Shown: positions 31,543 to 44,945 of the stretch, one piece after another
How positions within the stretch are numbered: the first letter of the stretch is position 1
Layout of the letters: the number at the start of each line of letters is the position of its first letter
Source: Comamonadaceae bacterium
GTDB lineage: Bacteria; Pseudomonadota; Gammaproteobacteria; Burkholderiales; Burkholderiaceae_C
Direction of reading: 5' to 3'
NCBI GenBank assembly: GCA_947451285.1
Contig: CANFYL010000003.1
Coordinates: forward strand, 1 to 55,572
Length of the DNA stretch: 55,572 nucleotides
Notes under the pieces: generated by a model
Told to the model about the DNA's origin: nothing
Databases searched by the model: none
What the model saw: only the letters and a program-made list of their open reading frames with translations
Program-made: the position numbers and the translations under genes

Positions 31543-32496
31543 TCAGGTCGGCACTAAAAACTCACGGCTGATGCTTGCACCGATGTCATTCACTCGGTCC
31601 AAGAACTGGGTTAGATAAGCATGAAGACCATTCGCCAAGATCTCTTCAATCTTGCCAAACTGCAACTCTGCCAACAGCTTACCCGAGCGACGCCGACTCT
31701 CAATCGCCGAGTCGGACGACACCATGGCCAAGTTGCTCACCACTTCATTCAAACATGCATGAAGAGAACGCGGCATATCGGCGCGCAACACCAACAATTC
31801 GGCCACACGTTCGGGTTGAATCACGTCACGATAAACCTTGCGGTAAATCTCAAAGCCAGACACGCTGCGCAAAATCGCACTCCAGTGGTAGAAGTCGTAT
31901 TCTTGGTCTTGTGCGTTGGCAGCGCCAAAGAAATCGCTCTCAACGGCATGGAACTTCACATCCACCAAACGTGCCGTGTTGTCTGCACGTTCCAGAAACG
32001 TGCCCAAACGCATAAAGTGCAAGGCCTCATCCATCAGCATGGTGCCAACCGTGACACCTCGTGACAAGTGCGAGCGAAACTTCACCCATTCGAAAAACTG
32101 ACCGGGATCTCTTTCAAACTCACCCTCTTTGATCTTGCGCAGCAGCTCCAACCAAGTTTGATTTTGTGTTTCCCACACCTCGGTGGTTAAGCTGCCGCGA
32201 ACCGCACGCGCGTTCTCGCGCGCGGCTTTGAGGCAAGAAATAATCGATGAGGGGTTGTCCTCGTTTTTCACCATGAATGCCATCACGTTTTCAGGCGTGA
32301 TCTCTGGGTACAAAGACTCATAGGCGGGCAACAGCTCGCTGATCGACAGCAAGCCCTGCCAACCCATTTGGGCCACAGCAGCTGATTGCGGCAACAGCGA
32401 GGTTTGGTAATTCACGTCCAGCAAACGTGCGGTGTTTTCGGCCCGCTCGGTATAGCGGGACATCCAAAACAGGTGATCAGCGGTGCGGCTCAGCAT
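31543..32496 (-). CDS. Alpha-E domain protein (locus 1)
   Basis: A 317-residue all-helical protein of the alpha-E (formerly DUF403) family. The start 'MLSRTADHLFWMSRYTERAE' with the RYTERxEN motif at residues 15-21, and 'FLERADNTARLVDVKF' near residue 165, are typical. It is always found next to circularly permuted ATP-grasp enzymes and is thought to be their partner; its activity is unknown. The ATG is two bases after the ATP-grasp stop. The same domain is fused to an ATP-grasp in the second locus at 40.6 kb. Confidence 0.92.
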   Translation of the reverse strand: MLSRTADHLFWMSRYTERAENTARLLDVNYQTSLLPQSAAVAQMGWQGLLSISELLPAYESLYPEITPENVMAFMVKNEDNPSSIISCLKAARENARAVRGSLTTEVWETQNQTWLELLRKIKEGEFERDPGQFFEWVKFRSHLSRGVTVGTMLMDEALHFMRLGTFLERADNTARLVDVKFHAVESDFFGAANAQDQEYDFYHWSAILRSVSGFEIYRKVYRDVIQPERVAELLVLRADMPRSLHACLNEVVSNLAMVSSDSAIESRRRSGKLLAELQFGKIEEILANGLHAYLTQFLDRVNDIGASISREFLVPT

Positions 32497-32498
32497 AG

Positions 32499-33944
32499 TT
32501 AAACCTCAAGAATCCATGTGTCTTTGGTACCCCCGCCTTGCGACGAGTTCACCACCAGCGAGCCTTCTTTCAATGCCACGCGAGTCAAACCGCCAGGCAC
32601 CATTTGCACGGTTTTTCCACTGAGCACGAAAGGGCGCAAGTCAATGTGGCGCGGCGCAATGCCACTCTCTACATAGGTCGGGCAGCTTGACAAACTCAGG
32701 GTGGGTTGTGAAATATAGCCATCAGGTTTTGCAATGAGCACACGACGGAAATCTTCAATCTCTGCCTTGGTGGCTGCAGGCCCGACCAACATGCCATAAC
32801 CGCCTGCGCCATGCACCTCTTTCACCACCAACTCGCTCAAGTGATCGAGCGTGTACTGCAAGTCTTCTTTCTTGCGGCATTGAAAAGTTGGCACATTGTT
32901 CAGGATGGGTTTCTCGCCCAAGTAGAACTCGATCATTTGTGGCACATAAGGGTAGATCGACTTGTCGTCAGCAATGCCTGTCCCCACAGCGTTGCATATG
33001 CTCACATGCCCTGCGCGGTACACATCCATCAAGCCCGCACAACCCAAGGTTGAGCTCGCGCGAAATACTTTGGGGTCTAAGAAGTCGTCGTCCACGCGGC
33101 GGTAAATCACATCCACCCGCTTAGGTCCACGCGTGGTGCGCATGTAGACAAAGTTGTCTTTCACAAACAAGTCTTGGCCCTCAACCAACTCCACACCCAT
33201 CTGCTGCGCCAAAAACGCATGTTCAAAATAAGCGCTGTTGTACATGCCCGGGGTCAACACCACCACCGTGGGGTTGTCGGTGGTCGCCGGACAGCTGGAA
33301 CGCAAGGTCTCGAGCAACAAGTCGGGGTAATGGGCCACAGGGGCCACACGGTGCTGGCTGAACAACTCGGGGAACAGCCGCATCATCATCTTGCGGTCTT
33401 CCAGCATATAGCTGACACCGCTGGGCACCCGCAGGTTGTCTTCGAGCACGTAGTACTCGCCCTCACCTTGCGCATTGGGGGCCCGCACGATGTCAATGCC
33501 ACTGATGTTGGAGTACACGCTGTGTGGCACATCCACCCCCATCATTTCGGGGCGGAACTGAGCGTTGTGAAGAATCTGCTCAGCGGGAATCACTCCAGCC
33601 TTGAGGATCTCTTGCCCATGGTAGATATCATGGATGAAGCGATTCAACGCGGTCACGCGCTGCACCAAGCCCTTTTGCATGTCACGCCACTCGTGGGCGG
33701 GAATGACACGTGGAATCAAATCAAAAGGAATCAAACGCTCGGTGCCAGCGCCCTCTTCGTCTTTGTCCCCATACACGGCGAAGGTGATACCCACGCGGCG
33801 AAAAATCATTTCAGCCTCTTCACGGCGCCCGCGCATGGCTTGGGGGTTTTGGCGATTGAGCCAATCCAAGTAGCTCTTGTAGTGGGGCCTCACCTGTCCC
33901 GGCACGTAGGGCAGTTGGGCATACATTTCATCGAACTTGTGCAT
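32499..33944 (-). CDS. Circularly permuted ATP-grasp protein (locus 1)
   Basis: A 481-residue protein of the circularly permuted type 2 ATP-grasp family (formerly DUF404/DUF407). Landmarks are 'LEDNLRVPSGVSYMLEDRKM' near residue 167, 'LTPGMYNSAYFEHAFLAQQM' near residue 230, 'YRRVDDDFLDP' near residue 284, and the nucleotide-loop 'VKEVHGAGGYGMLVGP' near residue 385. The family is predicted to form amide bonds using ATP. The substrates are unknown. It forms a two-gene unit with the alpha-E gene downstream; comEC lies 42 bases upstream on the same strand but is functionally unrelated. Confidence 0.93.
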   Translation of the reverse strand: MHKFDEMYAQLPYVPGQVRPHYKSYLDWLNRQNPQAMRGRREEAEMIFRRVGITFAVYGDKDEEGAGTERLIPFDLIPRVIPAHEWRDMQKGLVQRVTALNRFIHDIYHGQEILKAGVIPAEQILHNAQFRPEMMGVDVPHSVYSNISGIDIVRAPNAQGEGEYYVLEDNLRVPSGVSYMLEDRKMMMRLFPELFSQHRVAPVAHYPDLLLETLRSSCPATTDNPTVVVLTPGMYNSAYFEHAFLAQQMGVELVEGQDLFVKDNFVYMRTTRGPKRVDVIYRRVDDDFLDPKVFRASSTLGCAGLMDVYRAGHVSICNAVGTGIADDKSIYPYVPQMIEFYLGEKPILNNVPTFQCRKKEDLQYTLDHLSELVVKEVHGAGGYGMLVGPAATKAEIEDFRRVLIAKPDGYISQPTLSLSSCPTYVESGIAPRHIDLRPFVLSGKTVQMVPGGLTRVALKEGSLVVNSSQGGGTKDTWILEV

Positions 33945-33986
33945 CTTGGAACTCCTGCTCCGACAGAAGCAAGTTAAGTGCCATTA

Positions 33987-36425
33987 TCAAGGTATTCGGT
34001 GGTGCCAATAGCGTTGTTGCTCCTCGCGCGTGCAATGCACCAACTTGGGTTGATCACTTTGCCATCGTGATGCACCACAACGGGGGGTTTGCACCACTTG
34101 TACCCCCAGCGCCTTGTAGCGCGAGAGCACATCACTTCGAGGATGTCCAAAACGATTGCGGTAACCAGCCTGCACAACGGCAATCACAGGTTGAACCGCT
34201 TGTAAAAACTCATTCGTTGACGAAGTCGCGCTGCCATGGTGAGGAACCAGGAGCCAATCGGCCTGAAGTGTGACACCCGAACGAACCAAGCGTTGCTCCT
34301 GAGCAGCCTCAATATCACCCACGAGTAACGCACGAACCCCGTCTGTGCTTTGCAAGCGAAGCACACAACTCATGGAATTTGGCTTCGAAGCACGCGCATA
34401 GTCACTGCCATGAGGATGCAGTACGGTGAATTCCACGCCATCCCATTGCCAGCGCTGTCCGCTTTCGCAACGTTGTATCTCGTGCAACGCATTCAAAACA
34501 TGCGTAGAAGGCGTCGAAGACCAAAGTTGAGCTTGCGGCTGCGTGGCCAGTACTGCCGGTGCACCTCCACTGTGGTCGCTGTCTTGATGGCTGATGACCA
34601 CACCATCTAATCGCTCCCCCAAGCTTCGCAGCAAGGGCACCAACACACGCTGACCAGCATCAGTTTCAGACGAATAACGTGGGCCTGTGTCATAGAGCAG
34701 GGCATGTGTTTTAGTTCGCACAAGTACCGCATGACCTTGTCCCATGTCTGCTGCGATGAGCTCAAAAGCGCCATAAGGCGGACGCTGTGTTTGCCAAGTC
34801 AGCAGAGGCAGCACCATCGCCAAACCACAGAGCCGCATCCAACCGGGCAGGCGACGAGCCCACAAAGCCACACCTAACAGTGACGCTGCCCCCACCCAAG
34901 CAGGTGCGGCAGGCGCAGACCATTGCGCCCAAGATGCTTGCGACATCCACGTCAAACACTTCATCAAAAGCTGTAAAAAGGTCTGCGCCCATGACCATAA
35001 GTCAGAGCAAAACAAACCCAATAAACACAAAGGCGTGACCAGCAATGTGACCCACGGCACAGCCACCAAGTTAGCGAACAAGCCAATCACCGAGACTTGA
35101 TGAAACAACACCAAACTCAGGGGCGCTAAGCACACACTCATCAACCACTGTTCGCGCACCATCAGCTTGAGCTGCTTCCAAGCGCGATGCGCAGGCGTAA
35201 GACCGACAGTGTCGGTTTGCAACCCCGACGCAAACAACACACCCACAGCCACAAAGCTCAACCAGAACCCTGCTTGCAATATCGCCCAGGGATCCAGGGC
35301 CACAACCACCACACAAACCAGCAACCATAAGTGCGGCCATGGCCACCTCAGGCCGAACCAGCGCAACAAAGTGGCTGTCAGCAGCATCCAAACCGTGCGC
35401 TGTGCTGGCAGCCCCCATCCAGTGAACAAGGCATACACCAGGGCCACACCACAGCCCACGGCTTGAGCAGCGAAGGGAGCCGGCAAAAGCAAGCACCACG
35501 GTCTCAGCCGTGACCACGCATTGCTGCGCCGCCAACACCATCCAGCCACTGACGCACAAAGCCAAGCCAAGCCAGTGATGTGTAAACCTGAAATCGACAT
35601 CAAATGCGCCACACCCGTGGCGCGAAAAACATCCCAGTCAGCGCGTTCAATGGCAGCTTGATCGCCCACCAACAATGCAGAGATGATGCCCGCCATCGCT
35701 CGCTCAGGAACTTGGCGCTCAATCGCTTCTCGTGCGTCTTGACGCCAGCGCTCGACAGGATGAGAAAGACTCGTCCCGAGCCGCACTGGTACAGGATCGC
35801 GCAGGCCGGCACGAACATAACCAGTCGCTTGTAGCTTTTGCTCCCACAGCCACAACTCGTAATCAAAACCATGCGGGTTCATATGGCCATGCGGTGCCTT
35901 GAGTCGAACTGCGAAACGCCAACGGTCGCCAGCTCTCACTGCAGGGGGTGGTTCCCCCACATCTGGACTACCCCACGTCTTACTGCCGTACCAACCGAGC
36001 AGCAGTTGTGAAGGTATGCCAGGTGGCGCATACTCAACTTCGAAGCGAAACCGCCAGTTTTCACCCATGCGTTGAGGCATGGCGGCAACCACTCCCTCCA
36101 CCACCAGAGTGGCCCCCTCCCACCGTGTCTCAATGGACTTCGCCAACTGCGCATGCGCGCGCCAGCCAGTTTGACCAAAAGCCGTTGCCCATGCGCCAAG
36201 GACAAGCACCCAGAAGGTGAGATTCCAACGAGTCAGGTATGCATCACGCAGTCCAAACAGCGGCGCCAAAATCAAGCAGCTACCCAGCGCCATGAGGCCC
36301 AAGTAGAGTATCGCCGCCATGAGTTCGCGTTCCTGCAGCTGGCAAACCGTACCTGCCAACCAACCAATACCTAGGGGAGTGAGACGTGAAATCAATGCAG
36401 ACCTTGCTGAACCAAGGTCTGGCAA
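33987..36425 (-). CDS. comEC: DNA internalization protein ComEC/Rec2
   Basis: An 812-residue membrane channel for single-stranded DNA uptake in natural transformation. The N-terminal helices and soluble DUF4131-like segment come first, then the competence domain ('DVFRATGVAHLMSISGLHIT'), then a C-terminal metallo-beta-lactamase-like nuclease with 'VVISHQDSDHSGGAP' and 'LLVPHHGSATSSTNEFLQAV', keeping the His/Asp metal residues. The best start is a TTG at 36425; later ATG codons would remove the first helix. Other competence genes are not in the window. Confidence 0.92.
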   Translation of the reverse strand: MPDLGSARSALISRLTPLGIGWLAGTVCQLQERELMAAILYLGLMALGSCLILAPLFGLRDAYLTRWNLTFWVLVLGAWATAFGQTGWRAHAQLAKSIETRWEGATLVVEGVVAAMPQRMGENWRFRFEVEYAPPGIPSQLLLGWYGSKTWGSPDVGEPPPAVRAGDRWRFAVRLKAPHGHMNPHGFDYELWLWEQKLQATGYVRAGLRDPVPVRLGTSLSHPVERWRQDAREAIERQVPERAMAGIISALLVGDQAAIERADWDVFRATGVAHLMSISGLHITGLAWLCASVAGWCWRRSNAWSRLRPWCLLLPAPFAAQAVGCGVALVYALFTGWGLPAQRTVWMLLTATLLRWFGLRWPWPHLWLLVCVVVVALDPWAILQAGFWLSFVAVGVLFASGLQTDTVGLTPAHRAWKQLKLMVREQWLMSVCLAPLSLVLFHQVSVIGLFANLVAVPWVTLLVTPLCLLGLFCSDLWSWAQTFLQLLMKCLTWMSQASWAQWSAPAAPAWVGAASLLGVALWARRLPGWMRLCGLAMVLPLLTWQTQRPPYGAFELIAADMGQGHAVLVRTKTHALLYDTGPRYSSETDAGQRVLVPLLRSLGERLDGVVISHQDSDHSGGAPAVLATQPQAQLWSSTPSTHVLNALHEIQRCESGQRWQWDGVEFTVLHPHGSDYARASKPNSMSCVLRLQSTDGVRALLVGDIEAAQEQRLVRSGVTLQADWLLVPHHGSATSSTNEFLQAVQPVIAVVQAGYRNRFGHPRSDVLSRYKALGVQVVQTPRCGASRWQSDQPKLVHCTREEQQRYWHHRIP

Positions 36426-36502
36426 TCTAGCTAATTTCGTGGCCTTGATTAAAAGGCGCGCTCACAAAGTCAAGCGTATCAAGCAACTGTGCCCATTGGC
36501 GA

Positions 36503-36928
36503 TCAGGTGGCAGGTTTGCCTGAACAGACTTCTTTTTTCAGCGTCGCCAAATACGTATTGGGTCGGATGGGCACCTCGCGCATGCGCAACTCAGGGGCAT
36601 CCTCAGCGGCAACTTCTCTGCCCTTACCCATGGATTTTTCAAAAAAACTGACTGACAAGCGCACCACCATGTCAGTCTTGCAGTACAAGCGCCAACGGGT
36701 CATGACCGATTTATAAGCGTCTCCGCTTGAGGTCTTGTCGCCCTTGGAAAAATCAACCATGGTCCATGCGTAACGTGACACATGGACGGGCATCACCGAA
36801 TCTTTATCAAAGTAATATACGATATCCTCATCCTTGGCCAGTTCACTCCAATCGGCCGCAGCCAAAGGCGTCCAAGCCGATAAGGTCGCCCATAGAACCA
36901 TCCATACTAAATTACGAGTTAAACACAT
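36503..36928 (-). CDS. Small secreted protein, surface-adhesin E-like domain
   Basis: A 141-residue protein from the ATG at 36928 with a signal peptide (MCLTRNLVWMVLWATLSAWTP, cleavage near AAA-DW). The mature part has 'DEDIVYYFDKDSVMPVHVSR' and 'YKSVMTRWRLYCKTDMVVRL' with two cysteines (about residues 91 and 134), matching the short domain found in Haemophilus surface adhesin E-like proteins and many betaproteobacterial lipoprotein-like proteins. Here no lipobox is evident. The role is unknown; a periplasmic binding function is only a guess. Confidence 0.75.
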   Translation of the reverse strand: MCLTRNLVWMVLWATLSAWTPLAAADWSELAKDEDIVYYFDKDSVMPVHVSRYAWTMVDFSKGDKTSSGDAYKSVMTRWRLYCKTDMVVRLSVSFFEKSMGKGREVAAEDAPELRMREVPIRPNTYLATLKKEVCSGKPAT

Positions 36929-37048
36929 GGTTTCCAGCTCAATCAATTTCCGATCTAACGTGCTGTTTGTATCGGTACCAGTTCAAGATACTTGAGCGCA
37001 CCAGCTTGGCGCGCAAACACATGGCGCATGTTTTGCTTTAATTGAGGC

Positions 37049-40000
37049 ATGTCTATCCATGCCGCACTCCACCACGTTACCCACTACTCCTACGACCGAC
37101 TCGTGGAACTCGGCCCACAAGTCATCCGCCTGCGTCCCGCACCACATTGCCGCAGCAAAGTGTTGTCCTATTCGCTTAAGGTGGAACCGGCGCACTTCGT
37201 CAATTGGCAACAAGACCCTTTCGCCAACTACCTGGCACGCTTGGTGTTTCACGAAAAAACCACCGAATTCAAGGTCACGGTGGACCTGGTGGTCGAAATG
37301 GCGGTCTACAACCCATTTGACTTTTTTCTGGAAGCCAACGCCGAAAAATTTCCTTTCAGCTACGACACCGCCACATCTCTTGAGTTAGCGCCCTACTTGG
37401 CCACGCTGGCGTTAACGCCCAAGTTTGAGGCCTATTGCAAGTCCATCGACTTGGACGACCTCCAACGTGAGCCCATTCGCACCATCGACTTTTTAGTTCG
37501 GATCAACCAAAAGCTGCACCGCGACGTCAACTACCTGATTCGCTTGGAACCCGGCGTGCAAACACCCGAACAAACCCTCACCTTGGGCAGCGGCTCGTGC
37601 CGAGACAGCGCCTGGCTGATGGTGCAACTGCTGCGCCAATGCGGCTTGGCCGCGCGCTTTGTGTCAGGCTATCTGATTCAACTCACCCCAGACGTCAAAT
37701 CGCTCGATGGCCCCAGCGGCACAGAAGTCGACTTCACGGATTTGCATGCATGGTGCGAAGTGTATTTACCCGGTGCAGGCTGGGTCGGTCTCGACCCAAC
37801 CTCTGGCCTGTTTGCCGGAGAGGGTCATATTCCCTTGGCCTGTACACCCCAACCCTCAAGTGCCGCGCCCATCGAAGGTTTGGTGGACGATGCCGAGGTG
37901 AAATTCAGCCACGACATGAAAGTCACACGGGTGCTGGAGTCACCCCGCGTGACCAAGCCCTACACCGAAGACCATTGGGTGCAGGTACTGGCTCTGGGCG
38001 ACGAGGTCGATCGCCGCCTCAACGACGGCGATGTGCGCTTGACCATGGGCGGCGAACCTACTTTTGTGTCGGTGAACGATCGAGACGCGCCTGAATGGAA
38101 CACCGAAGCCCTGGGCCCAACCAAGCGCGCTTACGCCACGGAATTGGTCCACAAACTGCGCGACGAATATGGCCAAGGGGGCTTCTTACATTTTGGCCAA
38201 GGCAAGTGGTACCCCGGCGAACAACTCCCACGATGGGCACTTGGCATTTACTGGCGCGCTGACGGGCAGCCTTGCTGGCACAACCCCGACTTGTTTGCCG
38301 ACGAGCGCGTACCCAGCCACTACACCAGCGAAGACGCTGAACAATTCACCCACACCTTGGCCCGCAAACTAGGGCTGGACGGTCAACACATCACCCCTGG
38401 TTTTGAAGACACCTGGTACTACCTCTGGCGCGAGCGCCGCTTGCCAGGCAACGTTGACCCCTTTGACTCACGCTTGGATGACGAGATGGAGCGCGCGCGA
38501 TTGCACCGCGTCTTCACCCAAGGCCTCAAGCAAGTCGTGGGCTATGTGCTCCCCCTCAAAGCCAACGACCCCGAAATGCTGGGCCCACGCTGGAGCAGCG
38601 GCTCATGGTTTCTCCGCGACGAGCGGATGTACTTGGTCCCGGGCGACTCGCCCATGGGCTATCGCCTGCCACTGGACTCCTTGCCATGGGTCACTGCAGC
38701 CGATTACCCGTATCCCATCAGCCAAGACCATTACGCCGAGCGCCAACCGCTGCCCCATGCCGCAGCCTTGAGGGCGCAATACGCACACCACGCCCGTTTC
38801 ACCCACTACAACACCCCTCACAGCGGAGGTAGTTTTACGCAAGGCGGCACGGTGGCTATGGGTGCCAATCACTATGCCGAAGAACTGATTGCCGTCAAAG
38901 GCATGGTGCCTTCTGGCACTTCGCCAGCACACCAAGTTCAGCGCGCCATCGACCCCAACACGCCACCCCACAAATTCCAATCGGCCTCCTGGATCACCCG
39001 CACCGCCATCTGCGTCGAAGTGCGCGACCCGGCCCGGGCCAACGGCCCAAACGTTGAATTGGCAGGCAAGACAGGCAGCGCCGCGCAAAGCTTGATGTAT
39101 GTCTTCATGCCGCCCTTGACGCGCTTGGAAGATTACTTGGAACTGCTCAGCGCCATCGAAGCCACCGCCCAAGAACTCGACATGCGGATCGTGCTTGAAG
39201 GCTATGGCCCGCCACGCGATCCACGCCTCAAAGTATTGGCCGTCACGCCTGACCCGGGTGTGATCGAAGTCAACATCCACCCAGCCCACAACTGGCAAGA
39301 AATCGTGGCGCACACCGAGTTCTTGTACCAAGCCGCCTTCGAGTCGCGCCTGTCGGCCGAAAAATTCATGACCGATGGCCGCCACACCGGCACTGGCGGC
39401 GGCAACCACGTGGTCATGGGGGGCGCCACTCCTGCCGACAGCCCGTTCTTGCGCAAGCCTGAACTGCTGGCCAGTTTGATTTTGTATTGGCACAACCACC
39501 CATCTCTGAGCTACTTGTTCAGCGGCATGTTCATTGGCCCCACCAGCCAAGCCCCCCGCGTGGACGAGGCGCGCAACGATCAAATCTACGAGCTCGAAAT
39601 TGCCTTGGGCGAAATTCGCAACAACCGCGCCAAATACGGGGTGGATTTGCCCCCATGGTTGGTCGACCGTAGCCTGCGCAACTTGCTGATTGATGTCACA
39701 GGCAACACCCACCGCTCAGAGTTTTGCATTGACAAGCTCTACTCACCCGACTCGTCCACCGGTCGCTTGGGCTTGCTGGAATTGCGCGCCTTTGAAATGC
39801 CCCCGCACGCCCGCATGAGCGCGGTGCAGCAACTGCTGCTGCGCGCCCTGGTGGCGCGCTTTTGGGCGCAACCCTACGAAGCCCCGGCCACGCGCTGGGG
39901 GACCGAGCTGCACGACCGCTTCTTGCTGCCCCACTTTGTCAAAGCCGACTTTGACGATGTGCTCACCGAACTCGGCGACAACGGCTTTCACTTCGACCCC

Positions 40001-40579
40001 GCCTGGTTTGCGCCACACTTTGAGTTCCGCTTTCCCCGCGTGGGCGAACTCAACACGCTGGGCATCTCACTGACCCTGCGCAACGCCCTTGAACCCTGGC
40101 ATGTGATGGGCGAAGAAGGCTCCAGTGGCGGCACCGTGCGCTATGTGGACTCGTCTCTTGAGCGCATCGAAGTGCACGTGACAGGCCTGAATCCCAGCCG
40201 TCACACCGTCACCGTCAATGGCCGCGCCCTGCCCCTGCAACCGACAGGCACCGTGGGCGAATACGTGGCCGGTGTGCGCTACCGTGCTTGGGCCCCGTCG
40301 TCTGCCTTGCACCCCACCATCGGCGTGCACGTGCCACTGACCTTTGACATCGTGGACACATGGATGAAACGGTCGGTGGGGGGGTGTCAATACCATGTGG
40401 CGCATGCTGGCGGCCTCAGCTATGACACCCTGCCAGTCAACGCCTACGAGGCAGAAAGCCGGCGTCTGTCGCGCTTCTTCCCGCTGGGCCATACGCCCGG
40501 CAAGCTCGACATTGGCGCGGCAACCGTGGGCGTGGCAGCGAGCAAGGAGTTTCCGTTCACGCTCGACTTGCGACGGTGA
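37049..40579 (+). CDS. Transglutaminase-like / DUF2126 giant protein (locus 2)
   Basis: An 1176-residue protein. Residues 1-100 form the transglutaminase N-terminal domain, and the catalytic core has Cys184 (GSGSCRDSAWL), His233 (DLHAWCEVYL) and Asp249 (GLDPTS), so the cysteine protease/transglutaminase triad is intact. From about residue 310 the long DUF2126 region begins ('VRLTMGGEPTFVSVNDRDAP') and includes 'GTGGGNHVVMGGATPADSPF' and 'HNHPSLSYLFSGMFIGPTSQ', which look like a nucleotide- or metal-dependent amidoligase site related to glutamine synthetase-like enzymes (inference). No signal peptide is seen. It starts the operon with the ATP-grasp/alpha-E fusion. The region is G+C rich. Confidence 0.92.
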   Translation: MSIHAALHHVTHYSYDRLVELGPQVIRLRPAPHCRSKVLSYSLKVEPAHFVNWQQDPFANYLARLVFHEKTTEFKVTVDLVVEMAVYNPFDFFLEANAEKFPFSYDTATSLELAPYLATLALTPKFEAYCKSIDLDDLQREPIRTIDFLVRINQKLHRDVNYLIRLEPGVQTPEQTLTLGSGSCRDSAWLMVQLLRQCGLAARFVSGYLIQLTPDVKSLDGPSGTEVDFTDLHAWCEVYLPGAGWVGLDPTSGLFAGEGHIPLACTPQPSSAAPIEGLVDDAEVKFSHDMKVTRVLESPRVTKPYTEDHWVQVLALGDEVDRRLNDGDVRLTMGGEPTFVSVNDRDAPEWNTEALGPTKRAYATELVHKLRDEYGQGGFLHFGQGKWYPGEQLPRWALGIYWRADGQPCWHNPDLFADERVPSHYTSEDAEQFTHTLARKLGLDGQHITPGFEDTWYYLWRERRLPGNVDPFDSRLDDEMERARLHRVFTQGLKQVVGYVLPLKANDPEMLGPRWSSGSWFLRDERMYLVPGDSPMGYRLPLDSLPWVTAADYPYPISQDHYAERQPLPHAAALRAQYAHHARFTHYNTPHSGGSFTQGGTVAMGANHYAEELIAVKGMVPSGTSPAHQVQRAIDPNTPPHKFQSASWITRTAICVEVRDPARANGPNVELAGKTGSAAQSLMYVFMPPLTRLEDYLELLSAIEATAQELDMRIVLEGYGPPRDPRLKVLAVTPDPGVIEVNIHPAHNWQEIVAHTEFLYQAAFESRLSAEKFMTDGRHTGTGGGNHVVMGGATPADSPFLRKPELLASLILYWHNHPSLSYLFSGMFIGPTSQAPRVDEARNDQIYELEIALGEIRNNRAKYGVDLPPWLVDRSLRNLLIDVTGNTHRSEFCIDKLYSPDSSTGRLGLLELRAFEMPPHARMSAVQQLLLRALVARFWAQPYEAPATRWGTELHDRFLLPHFVKADFDDVLTELGDNGFHFDPAWFAPHFEFRFPRVGELNTLGISLTLRNALEPWHVMGEEGSSGGTVRYVDSSLERIEVHVTGLNPSRHTVTVNGRALPLQPTGTVGEYVAGVRYRAWAPSSALHPTIGVHVPLTFDIVDTWMKRSVGGCQYHVAHAGGLSYDTLPVNAYEAESRRLSRFFPLGHTPGKLDIGAATVGVAASKEFPFTLDLRR

Positions 40580-40609
40580 ACCCAGCTCCGATGAGACAAT
40601 GCGCCCACT

Positions 40610-43492
40610 GTGGAGACACCTCAACACCCAACCGATGCCACCTCACCAACGCCCGCATTGGCTGAGTTGGTGAGTGCCTTGGTCCATCCGGCTGACAGCG
40701 GGCACTTTGACGAACTGTTGGGTGCCTGCCGTCCTGCCACTTCTGAACCCGGCCACACGCCATCGCCATCGCTAAGTCAAGGGCAAAGTCAAACATCGCT
40801 GCCATCACTGAGCAACCTTTCCCCACCAACTCGCCCCCACTTTAAGCCCTTCGCGCCACTTGCCCCGCTGTCCAACGCCAACCCAGCGGTTGCGGCAAAC
40901 CCCGTAAACGCTCCGACGCCAGTCGCTCATGCGGACCTGGCCACCCGGGAGTTGACGCCCTCTTGGCGCACCTTCTTTGAGCAGCTGGGACCGCTGGGAC
41001 TCGATGACCTCGACCGACGTACCCAGGTGCTGGCGCGCCAGGTGCGAGACAACGGCATCACCTACAACGTCTATGCCAGCCAAGGCGGGCCACAACGCCC
41101 TTGGGCGGTCGATTTGTTCCCCCTGATCTTGACCCCACAAAGCTGGCAACAGATAGAGCAAGGCGTGCAGCAGCGTGCACGCCTGTTGGAGCGCGTCATG
41201 GCCGACGTCTACGGCCCGCAGCAACTGATTCGGCAAGCCATGATTCCCCCAGCGTTGGTGCAAGGACACCCTGGCTATGTGCGTGCCATGCATGGTGTCT
41301 CGCCCGGCGGTGGCACGCACTTGCACATCGCCGCGTTTGACCTGGCGCGCGGCCCCGACGGGCAATGGGCGGTCGTGTCTCAGCGCACCCAGGCCCCCTC
41401 CGGCTTGGGTTACCTGCTTGAAAACCGCTTGCTGATTTCGCGCCAGTTTCCACAGGCGTTTGAAACCATGCACATCCAGCGCCTGGCTGCCACCTACCGG
41501 GTGTGGGTGGAGTCGCTCAAGCAGCACAGCCCTGCTGGCGCGCAAGCCCATGTGGCATTGCTCACCCCGGGCCCCTACAACGAAACCTATTTTGAACACG
41601 CTTACCTGGCCCGCTACCTCGGCCTGAGCTTGGTCGAAGGCAGCGACCTGACCGTGCGTGACGAGCGCCTGTACCTTCGCACCTTGCGCGGTTTGGAGCC
41701 CGTGCATGTGTTGCTCAAGCGCTTGGACGACGAGTTTTTAGACCCCCTGGAGTTGCGCGCCGACTCCACCCTGGGCGTTCCCGGCCTGCTGCAGGCAGTG
41801 CGCGCGGGCCACTTGGTGGTGGCCAACAGTCCGGGCTCGGCCTTCCTCGAATCCCCGGCCTTGATGGGCTTTTTTCCGGCGTTGAGCGAAACCCTGCTGG
41901 GCGAGACCTTGCAGTTGCCTGCGCTGGACACCTGGTGGTGCGGCGAGCGCGCAGCCTTGGCCAGCGTGCTGCCGCAGCTCGACCACATGGTGATCAAACC
42001 CACCTACCCGGGCTCTGCCAGCCATGGCAGTTTTGACGCGGCGCTGGGGCGATCCCTGAGCGAATCGCAGCGCGACGAATGGGTGGGGCGCATCACGCGC
42101 CAGCCCGATCGCCACACCTTGCAGGCCTACATGCCGTTGTCACAGATGCCAACTTGGAAAAACGCCCAAGAAGGCATCGTGTCGCGCTCGGTCATGTTGC
42201 GCGTATTTGCCTTGCGCGATGGCCCCGACTCTTGGCGCGTCCTGCCCGGCGGTTTGGCGCGCATTGCGGCACCGAATGCCGAAATTGCCTCGATGCAACG
42301 CGGTGGCAGCAGCGCCGATGTGTGGGTCCAAACCGAAGCCGCCGTAGACCGCAGCACCTTGCTGACCAAGACCGCCAGCTCGGTGAACTTCACCCACCGC
42401 CCACGCATGGTGACCAGCAGAGCAGCAGAAAACCTGTATTGGCTAGGACGCTACACCGAGCGCAGCGAGAACATGGTGCGTTTAGTGCGCTTGTGCCTTG
42501 AGGCGCTCAATGGGGAAGATCCGGCATCGCGCAGCCTGTGGGCTTGGTTGCAGCAACTCACCCAACGCCAAGGCTTGATTCCCTTGGGTGTGCCCTTCGC
42601 CCAAGGGCATGGCACGGAAGAAGCAGGCCTCTCCACCCCCAGCATGGGCACCCGTCGCAGGGTGTTCGAGCGGACCTTGATTGCCTGCCTCGACCAAGAC
42701 GAACACACCACCAGCGTGGGTTACAACTTGCGCGCACTGCGGCAAGCAGCATCTTCGTTGCGCGAGCGTTTGTCGCCAGAGCACTGGAACGCCATCGTCC
42801 ATTGCGTGGCGCAATTCAGTGCCGACTGCACTCAGACCCTGTCTCGCCCCGAGTTTTCCGCCATTCAGGCTTTGCAGGCCTTGGAGTCAGCCAGCGCGAC
42901 CTTGGCAGCCATCACAGGGGCACAAACCGACCGCATGACGCGTGACGAGGGTTGGCAATTGCTGAGCATCGGCCGCCATGTCGAACGCTTGGGTTTCTTG
43001 GCCGATGCGCTGGACTTGGCGGTTGAGGTCGGCGCGTTTGAAGTCGCTCAAGAGGCTTCACACCATGCTGCGCATCTGACCGAGGAAACCTTGGACAACA
43101 GCTCACACTTCAGCGCTTTACTGGCTTTGTTTGACAGCACCATCACCTTTCAGGCCCAACACCAACAAAGCCGTGACTTGGCGCCACTGGTCGAGCTGCT
43201 GATTCAAGACCACGACAACCCCAGGTCTTTGGCTTGGGTCACCCGCTCCTTGCGCGCGCGCCTGTCCAAATTGGCGGCCACGCCCATGGGCGAACCCGAT
43301 GCGCTGGCCTTGTTGGTGCCCCACGTGCAGCATGCCAAGCTTGAGGAACTCTGTGCGCGCGATGCCCAGGGGCAACTGGTCGCGTTGCGCACGTGTTTGT
43401 CTGGATGTGTGCAAGCTGCGTGGCAGGTTTCAGATGCCATCTCTGCCCACTATTTCAGCCACACCCAAAACGGCGACAGCGTGGGGGCTTGA
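40610..43492 (+). CDS. Circularly permuted ATP-grasp / alpha-E fusion protein (locus 2)
   Basis: A 960-residue protein from a GTG at 40610; no in-frame ATG is near. A proline-rich, likely disordered N-terminus (residues 1-110) precedes the ATP-grasp part (about 115-590), with 'LTPGPYNETYFEHAYLARYL', 'KRLDDEFLDPLELRADSTLG' and 'LPGGLARIA'. The alpha-E part follows (about 600-950), with 'AAENLYWLGRYTERSENMVR' and 'IGRHVERLGFLADALDLAV'. Compared with the locus 1 enzyme, the glycine-rich nucleotide loop is altered ('VIKPTYPGSASHGSFDAALG' replaces 'VHGAGGYGM'), so its activity may differ. It is 30 bases after the DUF2126 gene and 2 bases before the next. Confidence 0.92.
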   Translation: METPQHPTDATSPTPALAELVSALVHPADSGHFDELLGACRPATSEPGHTPSPSLSQGQSQTSLPSLSNLSPPTRPHFKPFAPLAPLSNANPAVAANPVNAPTPVAHADLATRELTPSWRTFFEQLGPLGLDDLDRRTQVLARQVRDNGITYNVYASQGGPQRPWAVDLFPLILTPQSWQQIEQGVQQRARLLERVMADVYGPQQLIRQAMIPPALVQGHPGYVRAMHGVSPGGGTHLHIAAFDLARGPDGQWAVVSQRTQAPSGLGYLLENRLLISRQFPQAFETMHIQRLAATYRVWVESLKQHSPAGAQAHVALLTPGPYNETYFEHAYLARYLGLSLVEGSDLTVRDERLYLRTLRGLEPVHVLLKRLDDEFLDPLELRADSTLGVPGLLQAVRAGHLVVANSPGSAFLESPALMGFFPALSETLLGETLQLPALDTWWCGERAALASVLPQLDHMVIKPTYPGSASHGSFDAALGRSLSESQRDEWVGRITRQPDRHTLQAYMPLSQMPTWKNAQEGIVSRSVMLRVFALRDGPDSWRVLPGGLARIAAPNAEIASMQRGGSSADVWVQTEAAVDRSTLLTKTASSVNFTHRPRMVTSRAAENLYWLGRYTERSENMVRLVRLCLEALNGEDPASRSLWAWLQQLTQRQGLIPLGVPFAQGHGTEEAGLSTPSMGTRRRVFERTLIACLDQDEHTTSVGYNLRALRQAASSLRERLSPEHWNAIVHCVAQFSADCTQTLSRPEFSAIQALQALESASATLAAITGAQTDRMTRDEGWQLLSIGRHVERLGFLADALDLAVEVGAFEVAQEASHHAAHLTEETLDNSSHFSALLALFDSTITFQAQHQQSRDLAPLVELLIQDHDNPRSLAWVTRSLRARLSKLAATPMGEPDALALLVPHVQHAKLEELCARDAQGQLVALRTCLSGCVQAAWQVSDAISAHYFSHTQNGDSVGA

Positions 43493-43494
43493 TC

Positions 43495-44469
43495 ATGTTG
43501 CTCCACGTGTTGCACACCACCACTTACCACTATGCATCGCAGGTGGAGACCGCGCAGCACATGGCGCATTTGCTGCCACGCGACCTCTCCTCTCAAACTG
43601 TGCGCAATGCCGCACTACGCATCACGCCGGCCCCAGCCGCACGCAGCGACCATGTGGACGTGTTTGGCAACCTGCGCAGCTTTTTTTCATTGCCTGCGCC
43701 TCACAGCAGTTTGCACATCGAAGCCAGCAGCTTGGTGCTGACACATCCCACGACTTTTGAAGCCAGCCAAGCGGCCCAGCTCCCAAACTGGGAAAAAGTG
43801 CGTGACCATTTTGTGTACCACGCAGGCGCCGCTTGGGATGCGGCCAATGAATTTGTGTTTGCCTCGCCCTACGTCGTGCCGCACCAAGACTTCGGCGAAT
43901 TTGCCCGACCCAGCTTCACCCCCCAACGTTCGGTCTTGGCAGCCGCCTGTGATTTGATGACCCGCATCCATCAAGAGTTCAAATACGCCAGCGCCAGCAC
44001 CGACATCAACACTCCCGCTCGTGAGGCCCTGGCCAAACGCCAAGGCGTGTGCCAGGACTTTGCGCATATCTTGTTGTGTTGCTTGCGCACCCAGGGCTTG
44101 GCTGCGCGCTATGTGAGCGGCTATTTGCTGACCGAACCCCCAGAGGGCCAAGCGCGCTTGATTGGCAGCGATGCATCACATGCTTGGGTCTCGCTGTATG
44201 TGCCGCACACAGAGAACGGCACACTCACCCCCCATGGCCAATGGTTTGACCTTGACCCGACCAACAACCGCTGGGGCTTGAACTCTCCGGGTCAAGACTA
44301 CGTCACCCTGGCGCTCGGGCGTGACTTTGGTGATGTGTCACCTGTTCGTGGCGTGATTCACGGCGGGGCCAGTCACACCCTGGAAGTGGGTGTCACCGTG
44401 TTCCCCATTGAGGACCCTCCCATTGACCCTGCAAATGCAGCGCCTGAGCCTTCTAAAATTTCAACTTGA
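43495..44469 (+). CDS. Transglutaminase-like cysteine peptidase family protein (locus 2)
   Basis: A 324-residue protein from the ATG at 43495. An N-terminal bacterial transglutaminase-like domain (residues 1-90) precedes the core with Cys186 (RQGVCQDFAHI), His229 (SDASHAWVSLY) and Asp254 (FDLDPTNN). The triad is complete. No signal peptide. The start is two bases after the ATP-grasp/alpha-E fusion stop, showing coupling. It is a second, shorter member besides the transglutaminase domain of the DUF2126 protein. Expected to cleave or transfer amide bonds; substrate unknown. Confidence 0.93.
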   Translation: MLLHVLHTTTYHYASQVETAQHMAHLLPRDLSSQTVRNAALRITPAPAARSDHVDVFGNLRSFFSLPAPHSSLHIEASSLVLTHPTTFEASQAAQLPNWEKVRDHFVYHAGAAWDAANEFVFASPYVVPHQDFGEFARPSFTPQRSVLAAACDLMTRIHQEFKYASASTDINTPAREALAKRQGVCQDFAHILLCCLRTQGLAARYVSGYLLTEPPEGQARLIGSDASHAWVSLYVPHTENGTLTPHGQWFDLDPTNNRWGLNSPGQDYVTLALGRDFGDVSPVRGVIHGGASHTLEVGVTVFPIEDPPIDPANAAPEPSKIST

Positions 44470-44489
44470 AATTCAACAAGGACCACCCC

Positions 44490-44945
44490 ATGAGCATTTA
44501 TGACCGCCTGCAAGCCCTCCACATCACCCTGCCGCCCGTGGCTGTTCCGGCCGCAGCCTATGTGCCCTTTGTACAAAGCGGCAAACTGGTGTTCTTGAGT
44601 GGTCATATCGCCAAGCAAGACGGCAAATCCTGGGTCGGGCAGCTCGGGCGCACCATGAGCACCGAGCAGGCGAAGGCCGCCGCACGCTCAGTCGCCATCG
44701 ACTTGCTGGGCACCTTACACGCTGCCGCGGGAGACTTGAACAAGGTGCAACGCATCGTCAAAGTCATGAGCTTGGTGAACTCCACCCCTGACTACACCGA
44801 GCAGCACTTGGTGACCAACGGCTGCAGCGAGCTGATCGCCGAAGTCTTTGGTGACAAAGGCGCCCATGCCCGCAGCGCATTTGGCGTGGCCCAACTGCCC
44901 ATGGGTGCCTGCGTGGAAATTGAATTGATTGCCGAGCTGGCCTGA
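44490..44945 (+). CDS. RidA family protein (YjgF/YER057c/UK114)
   Basis: A 151-residue protein from the ATG at 44490, preceded by AAGGACC. 'YVPFVQSGKLVFLSGHIAKQ' and 'LVNSTPDYTEQHLVTNGCSE' with 'HARSAFGVAQLPMGACVEIE' match the subgroup that includes the longer YjgF-type proteins; the Arg (HARSAFG) that binds imine/carboxylate ligands is present. RidA hydrolyses reactive enamine/imine intermediates made by PLP enzymes. It lies 20 bases after the transglutaminase gene and may be part of that transcript. Confidence 0.9.
   Translation: MSIYDRLQALHITLPPVAVPAAAYVPFVQSGKLVFLSGHIAKQDGKSWVGQLGRTMSTEQAKAAARSVAIDLLGTLHAAAGDLNKVQRIVKVMSLVNSTPDYTEQHLVTNGCSELIAEVFGDKGAHARSAFGVAQLPMGACVEIELIAELA

Follow-up and report, generated by a model that had tools for sequence, protein, structure and literature searches.

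The window, that is, the whole stretch of 55,572 nucleotides analysed here, contains two loci with genes for circularly permuted ATP-grasp, alpha-E and transglutaminase-like proteins, which are arranged with their neighbours as follows:

31543..32496, minus strand: alpha-E protein gene, locus 1 (open reading frame; Pfam)
32499..33944, minus strand: split (A-type) circularly permuted ATP-grasp gene, locus 1 (open reading frame; Pfam; PDB 3n6x)
33987..36425, minus strand: comEC, upstream of locus 1 (Pfam; synteny)
37049..40579, plus strand: transglutaminase-DUF2126 gene, locus 2 (open reading frame; Pfam)
40610..43492, plus strand: F-type ATP-grasp/alpha-E fusion gene, locus 2 (Pfam; alignment to 3n6x)
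43495..44469, plus strand: second transglutaminase-like gene, locus 2 (Pfam; motifs)
44466..44945, plus strand: Rid-family gene, directly 3′ of locus 2 (Pfam)

In locus 1, 2 bases separate the ATP-grasp and alpha-E genes, and in locus 2 a 30-base gap lies between the transglutaminase-DUF2126 gene and the fusion, which is followed after a gap of 2 by the second transglutaminase, taking as its start the likely ATG at 43495 in place of the mechanical ORF start at 43393. The coordinates and gaps of the original prediction match these open reading frames, each of its domain calls was confirmed by Pfam, and the motifs it had named, RYTERxEN in alpha-E and PGGLxR, LTPGxYN and DDxFLDP in ATP-grasp, are present in the translations of both copies. 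All Pfam scores are far over the cut-off, at 331.6 and 200.6 bits for the two copies of Alpha-E, 542.7 and 473.6 for those of CP_ATPgrasp_2, 1325.6 for DUF2126, and 89.4 and 81.6 for Bact_transglu_N. No CP-ATP-grasp genes beyond the copies of locus 1 and locus 2 were found in the assembly, whose completeness is 62%. The Rid-family gene, whose start is perhaps an in-frame ATG near 44490, is possibly co-transcribed with locus 2, and such a gene lies 3′ of the second transglutaminase in 57 of the 80 named loci; comEC is by synteny a frequent neighbour upstream of locus 1, for which no membership of the system is claimed.

The split and fused ATP-grasps

The two ATP-grasps of the window are 30.8% identical over 454 columns, and in the phylogeny the split and F-type forms make up two clades, one branch apart with support 100. 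Because of this identity and these separate clades they are not recent duplicates, so that the possibility of recent, nearly identical tandem copies, raised in the original prediction, falls away; judged by their sequences, they are old paralogues.

The split ATP-grasp of locus 1 is a close relative of PDB 3n6x (E 3.6e-213), whose residues agree with those of the split form. It retains Asp151, Glu168, Asn170, Lys328 and Lys375, and Glu168, Asp169, Asn170, Arg172, Asp326, Asp327, Lys328, His433 and Asp435 are invariant in 122/122 split forms. By eye, the split form shares a motif order (Asp..Glu-x-Asn, Lys, Lys-Gly-rich) with glutathionylspermidine synthetase and with the E. coli proteins YgiC and YjfC, both annotated as peptide-spermidine ligases, and we take these motifs to be contacts in the E. 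coli glutathionylspermidine synthetase. Asp..Glu-x-Asn and the two lysines are in this sense putative metal and ATP contacts, placed by motif order without a significant alignment: hhalign gives a probability of at most 0.4% and no significant profile alignment between the split form and enzymes of this type, and 3n6x, its close homologue, bears the name glutathionylspermidine synthetase as putative. The alpha-E protein of locus 1 is predicted to be all-helical (model pLDDT 90.4) and carries the ERA[ED]N motif twice.

When aligned to 3n6x, the fused ATP-grasp has VSQRTQ where the split form has LEDNLR, and among 136 F-type domains Glu168 is retained in 1 and Asn170, Lys328 and Asp435 in 0. Among the papers listed by the literature searches, none was found to describe this loss in the F-type. 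Having lost putative metal and ATP residues, the fused ATP-grasp is probably inactive, making no bond itself, and probably binds or positions a substrate. The original prediction had expected its two-product hypothesis to fail if locus 2 proteins lacked ATP-binding residues in structural models, and at the level of sequence two putative metal ligands and the putative ATP lysine are indeed gone from the fused protein. The contrary view, of an active ligase whose metal and nucleotide contacts have been rearranged, could appeal to 28 positions that are at least 95% conserved in the F-type and yet unlike the split form, as well as to the retention of Asp151 in 133/136 domains and of Lys375 in 105/136; the F-type is therefore under selection, and its activity could have changed. 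Nevertheless, the positions replaced are those invariant in 122/122 split forms, with Asn170 changed to Arg in 134/136 and Lys328 replaced in 136/136, and Lys375 itself is lost in 16/18 F-type domains of the phylum set, by which an active fused ligase seems to us quite unlikely.

As regards distribution, the phylum sample of 249 genomes has CP-ATP-grasp in 147 and DUF2126 in 75, and the two operon types, Anbu-type and DUF2126, recur in relatives. Two or more CP-ATP-grasp copies are found in 127/130 DUF2126-positive family genomes (own genome left out) against 13/69 DUF2126-negative ones (p 7e-33), and in 71/75 DUF2126 genomes of the phylum sample (own genome included), a copy number of 2 being taken as split plus fused and not assigned genome by genome. 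The suggested check, whether locus 2 always co-occurs with locus 1, is approached by these counts, in which DUF2126 nearly always goes with a second ATP-grasp copy. There are seven single-copy DUF2126 genomes. Five carry a split ATP-grasp, 51 to 81% identical to that of locus 1; in a sixth the copy is the fused one, and the first 70 residues of a split form stand at the end of a contig; the remaining genome (G105, 240 contigs), with the fused form alone and the split form absent, is the exception.

The other domains of locus 2

The transglutaminase domain joined to DUF2126 has, by motif, Cys184, His233 and Asp249, and the second transglutaminase-like protein Cys186 and Asp254; the Cys and His motifs are retained in 123/123 DUF2126-linked and 129/131 terminal sequences. 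DUF2126 itself, which Pfam already labels a ‘putative amidoligase’, has a mean column identity of 59% over 40 sequences, and the matches of its predicted model to the glutamine synthetase / gamma-glutamylmethylamide synthetase fold are consistent, with low scores, which makes a glutamine-synthetase-fold amidoligase possible. The ligase of locus 2 is likelier to be DUF2126 than the fused ATP-grasp.

These same domains could suggest a ligase and its antagonist, in which a group attached through an amide bond by locus 1 would be removed or transferred by the transglutaminase-like domains encoded in locus 2. The retained Cys and His motifs, and the way locus 2 depends on a split ATP-grasp, are in keeping with this, as is the fact that a search for Bact_transglu_N genes in this genome and in two complete genomes of the genus found just the locus 2 pair; but it leaves unexplained the presence in locus 2 of the conserved, ligase-like DUF2126, and we regard it as improbable.

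Promoter-like sites and nitrogen

Three short sites lie before the start codons of the two units:

33969..33983, minus strand: sigma-54 type -24/-12 site TGGCACTTAACTTGC, 24 bases upstream of the locus 1 start codon
36998..37012, plus strand: possible NtrC-type dyad GCACC-N5-GGCGC with 1 mismatch, one short match that is weak when taken alone
37022..37036, plus strand: sigma-54 type -24/-12 site TGGCGCATGTTTTGC with 1 mismatch, 12 bases upstream of the locus 2 start codon

Apart from the first, TGGCACTTAACTTGC, no sequence in the window matches TGGCACN5TTGC exactly; with 0.51 exact matches expected, it is by itself no rarer than chance, and one-mismatch sites number 8 against 6.28 expected. 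Between genomes these sites are conserved at unit heads, strongly in the family and patchily in the phylum. In the family set, 51/57 ATP-grasp unit heads have a site within 2 mismatches (4.85 expected from shuffles) and 21/24 DUF2126 unit heads one within 1 mismatch (0.10 expected), while operon-internal DUF2126 genes have a site within 2 mismatches in 0/17; in the named set, 52/62 DUF2126 heads carry a site within 1 mismatch (0.20 expected). At this last threshold the family controls give 0/59 for aE, 0/40 for Rid, 0/44 for comEC and 2/38 for the fused gene, and the phylum set gives 10/26 ATP-grasp heads and 3/17 DUF2126 heads; five of the six same-order ATP-grasp heads of the phylum set (L076, L082, L105, L106, L108) are without a site under 4 mismatches. 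Sigma-54 would on this evidence drive both units in this organism.

The genome has rpoN and ntrC, and NtrC-type dyads occur at 18/57 ATP-grasp heads against 8/229 control genes (p 1e-8), at 4/24 DUF2126 heads and 2/17 operon-internal DUF2126 genes, and at 1/17 DUF2126 heads of the phylum (p 0.44); at locus 1 of the window, the only NtrC-type dyads have two mismatches. PP2685, PP2686 and PP2687 of P. putida are presumably this operon. In a nitrogen-limitation study their values are 11.1, 6.6 and 7.1 in one comparison and 4.0, 4.6 and 2.6 in the other, only PP2686 being named there as transglutaminase-like (PMC3325844), and the I35_5080-83 cluster of B. cenocepacia has tabulated values between -6.0 and -9.4 when ntrC is mutated, which we read as fold changes (PMC5491218). 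NtrC would then be the activator that drives both units in this organism. That the sites are sigma-54 promoters answering to some other enhancer-binding activator and a non-nitrogen stimulus fits the presence of dyads at only part of the heads and the want of a one-mismatch dyad at locus 1; the ntrC-mutant and nitrogen-limitation data speak against it, and we hold it to be very doubtful.

A probable single pathway and its relation to known systems

We think it fairly probable that the two loci together form one system of amide ligation, each supplying a half, under sigma-54 control and probably induced by nitrogen stress, and the original prediction of an amidoligase/transglutaminase system is supported, as is its statement that the substrate is not established, none being given for CP-ATP-grasp/DUF2126 genes in the literature found. 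All of the chemistry that follows, for both loci, we infer. Locus 1 would supply the ligase that works, an ATP-grasp, together with the alpha-E protein that partners it; this pair forms the Anbu operon's core, with the operon's own transglutaminase missing and the Anbu gene elsewhere in the genome; locus 2 would be an add-on, nearly always accompanied by a second, split ATP-grasp, in which the fusion would hold the substrate, ATP-driven ligation would fall to DUF2126, whose fold is perhaps glutamine-synthetase-like, and amides would be cut or transferred by the pair of transglutaminase-like domains.

That both halves would act in one pathway is likelier than two products, because the second ATP-grasp is near-universal with DUF2126 and the same type of promoter-like site stands at both heads. 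The “two systems with separate products” first proposed, each with its own ligase and making different peptide-like tags or metabolites, would agree with the old divergence of the ATP-grasp classes, with a candidate ligase, DUF2126, in locus 2, and with the two operons being often far apart or on different contigs outside the family; against these are set the two points just given and the key residues lost in the fused ATP-grasp, and we judge such a pair of systems unlikely. Within the one-pathway reading, a more tentative and less probable version may be put forward, in which the dead fusion would be a carrier or scaffold for a glutamine-synthetase-like DUF2126, and two unrelated ligase folds would work in turn on one peptide-like substrate under nitrogen stress. 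If true, this would amount to tagging or nitrogen recycling in two steps by a bacterial pathway, and we know of no described parallel to such a pathway. The results make a long-open question testable, without answering it: which ATP-grasp works, what the ligase of the second operon is, and under which condition the product should be sought.

Both operon kinds are widespread and had been predicted before, the DUF2126 (COG4196) amidoligase operon reportedly by Iyer et al. 2009. That work is cited in PMC5666114 and PMC6376114, and the Anbu operon is already described in print, with one of its ATP-grasp proteins assayed (PMC6376114), so that, with the Pfam label of DUF2126, the phrase “best candidate for an undescribed system” was too strong. 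In that assay phosphate was released from ATP, neither peptidase nor amidase activity of Anbu was found in one study (PMC6376114), and, counting against the induction proposed here, expression of the Anbu operon was reported unchanged under various conditions (PMC5666114). The absence of Anbu noted at the outset is true of the window and not of the genome: the assembly has an Anbu gene outside the window (G000:C76). Within the genus Anbu stands behind mutS, and the copy from this genus gives a match to PDB Anbu at 4e-92. Sigma-54 control may not extend to Anbu, because outlying Anbu genes are mostly without a sigma-54-type site (1/30 with at most 1 mismatch). Locus 1 is thus a cut-down Anbu operon: of the order ATP-grasp, alpha-E, transglutaminase, Anbu, it has the first two genes in the same order, without an adjoining transglutaminase or Anbu gene. 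Locus 2, in turn, is a complete DUF2126 operon, with the order transglutaminase-DUF2126, ATP-grasp with alpha-E, second transglutaminase, the same in gene order and domains as many loci of the phylum set.

Two operon types and their arrangement

The ORF check of the window recovered the five genes on which the original prediction of two paralogous amidoligase/transglutaminase loci was built, with the same positions and gaps (2 bases in locus 1, 30 and 2 bases in locus 2), and Pfam confirmed every domain that had been named in them:

31543-33944, minus strand: locus 1, a split ATP-grasp gene and an alpha-E gene (the latter at 31543-32496)
36503-36946: surface-adhesin-E-like gene (Pfam PF16747), between the loci
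37049-44469, plus strand: locus 2, a transglutaminase-DUF2126 gene, an ATP-grasp/alpha-E fusion and a second transglutaminase gene
44466-44945: Rid-family gene, 3′ of locus 2

The alpha-E protein of locus 1, which carries an ERA[ED]N motif in each half, seems to be made of two similar halves, and its comparison with known folds gave no clear match. The window is contig 3 of an assembly that is 62% complete, and the five records closest to the fused protein, whose best segments are 76 to 83% identical to it, are all MAGs, four labelled Comamonadaceae and one Burkholderiales.

Three samples were compared: (i) a family sample of 59 usable stretches, comprising 40 selected for having both loci within about 20 kb of each other on the same contig, plus 19 taken from DUF2126-negative genomes; (ii) a phylum sample of 40 further stretches, the ORFs of both samples being labelled by the window proteins; and (iii) a named set, picked solely by similarity to the fused protein. 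Two operon types recur, namely type A (ATP-grasp, alpha-E, transglutaminase, Anbu) and type B (transglutaminase-DUF2126, ATP-grasp/alpha-E, transglutaminase); locus 1 is type A minus its last two genes, and locus 2 is a complete type B. Both transglutaminase and Anbu lie downstream of alpha-E in 14 of the 28 phylum loci having alpha-E, as against 7 of 60 in the family. Counting the window, the family set has 60 loci: A and B share a strand in 20, are opposed in 21, and B is absent from 19. In some relatives (L015, L020, L038) B follows immediately after A on the same strand; among the 52 full-flank loci of the named set, A lies at most 9 kb away in 29, on the opposite strand every time. The order and orientation of the window are kept in two genomes of the same genus (L031, L032) and in three further loci (L114, L115, L117), and the surface-adhesin-E-like gene also stands between the loci in all five. 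A Rid gene follows the second transglutaminase in 57/80 named loci; in other relatives it is found on the far side of comEC.

Two classes of ATP-grasp

The two ATP-grasp domains of the window are 30.8% identical. From all loci, 258 domains of at least 380 residues were collected, near-copies being kept separate and shorter pieces left out: 122 split (A-type) and 136 of the class present in the fused protein (F-type, fused in 132 cases). A tree of 92 rows drawn from this collection, made by a quick method and with long branches within F, separates the classes by a single branch whose support is 100.

Seven residues are present in 122/122 A-type domains and are lost from the F-type almost without exception: Glu168 (Ser, Gly, Ala or others; retained in 1/136), Asn170 (Arg in 134/136; retained in 0/136), Arg172 (Gln in 130/136; retained in 1/136), Asp327 (Ser in 123/136; retained in 0/136), Lys328 (Pro in 93/136, or others; retained in 0/136), and His433 and Asp435 (retained in 1/136 and 0/136). 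In the alignment to 3n6x, the PDB relative of the split form, VLEDNLRTPSG corresponds to VVSQRTQAPSG in the window's fused protein. The fused protein is not decaying, because Asp151 persists in the F-type, as does Lys375 in 105/136, and 28 positions have a conservation of their own across the 136 F-type domains. From these residues we infer that it would bind or position, rather than ligate.

As regards the split form, it shares with glutathionylspermidine synthetase the succession of Asp..Glu-x-Asn, Lys and Lys-Gly-rich motifs, a likeness seen by eye and unconfirmed by profile alignment. An A-type protein encoded in a Yersinia Anbu operon released phosphate from ATP, the authors being unable to separate ligation from hydrolysis (PMC6376114).

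Sigma-54-type sites at the operon heads

The sole exact -24/-12 match in the window ends 24 bases 5′ of the start codon of locus 1; at locus 2 the site has one mismatch and its end is 12 bases 5′ of the start codon. The number of matches within the window is not unusual, and the weight of these sites rests on conservation instead. Sites were scored with GG and GC obligatory and single-base shuffles as the control; genes directly behind comEC were treated as heads (first genes of a unit). The family and named sets share some genomes (e.g. L134/G175, L138/G056), and are therefore not independent.

Genes with -24/-12 sites (family; named set; phylum; at most one mismatch unless stated)
ATP-grasp heads: 26/57 (0.60 expected), at most two 51/57 (4.85 expected); 16/35; 10/26
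DUF2126 heads: 21/24 (0.10 expected), at most two 23/24 (1.20 expected); 52/62; 3/17
ATP-grasp behind a transglutaminase gene (additional to the 57 heads): one-mismatch site in 3/3 (family)
DUF2126 behind alpha-E, transglutaminase or Anbu: at most two 0/17 (family)
alpha-E: at most two 0/59; 0/31
Rid: at most two 0/40; 0/57
comEC: 0/44, at most two 6; 0/38
Transglutaminase: 0/47, at most two 8; 0/76
Fused gene: 2/38; 0/79

NtrC-type dyads, counted at one mismatch or fewer, were found in the family at 18/57 ATP-grasp heads, 4/24 DUF2126 heads, 2/17 operon-internal DUF2126 genes and 8/229 controls; ATP-grasp heads, DUF2126 heads and controls gave 5/35, 10/62 and 7/281 in the named set, and 4/26, 1/17 and 2/80 in the phylum.

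Partners and known systems

A genome with DUF2126 usually carries its own fused ATP-grasp, and dependence was therefore tested by the presence of a second copy. At least two copies occur in 127/130 DUF2126-positive family genomes, against 13/69 DUF2126-negative ones, and in 71/75 DUF2126 genomes of the phylum; these are copy counts, split and fused forms having been told apart genome by genome for the seven single-copy genomes. Five of these hold the split form; G155 has the fused form and, at a contig end, the initial 70 residues of a split form; G105 has the fused form alone. The converse is frequent, 49/69 DUF2126-negative family genomes having at least one ATP-grasp copy.

Anbu accompanies the ATP-grasp gene across the family, though frequently encoded elsewhere in the genome (199 genomes: both 166, Anbu only 1, ATP-grasp only 13, neither 19; p 4e-17), and that of the window's own genome lies outside the window, at G000:C76 (L073, L212). 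Family Anbu genes apart from ATP-grasp often stand behind mutS and beside an alpha/beta-hydrolase: the 30 best Anbu loci (L210-L239) have a mutS-like ORF in 24 and an alpha/beta-hydrolase-like ORF in 23, labels backed by Pfam in L210, where the mutS stop and the Anbu start overlap by 4 bases. A proteasome-family search of G000, G073 and G166 returned a weak Anbu match only, the strong HslV-type match seen in many family members being absent, and the window's genus may lack HslV.

The genome carries rpoN and ntrC. PP2685-2687 of P. putida is presumably an operon of the present kind. These genes go up under nitrogen limitation (PMC3325844), as does P. putida Anbu, Anbu-operon expression being otherwise stated as steady (PMC5666114); in B. 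cenocepacia, a cluster that has these domains is dependent on ntrC and sigma-54 (PMC5491218); and in marine metagenomes these domains accompany those of urea metabolism (PMC3597751). In summary, the system is of a known and widespread kind, of which the window's member displays a two-unit layout, sigma-54-type heads and a probably inactive fused ATP-grasp.
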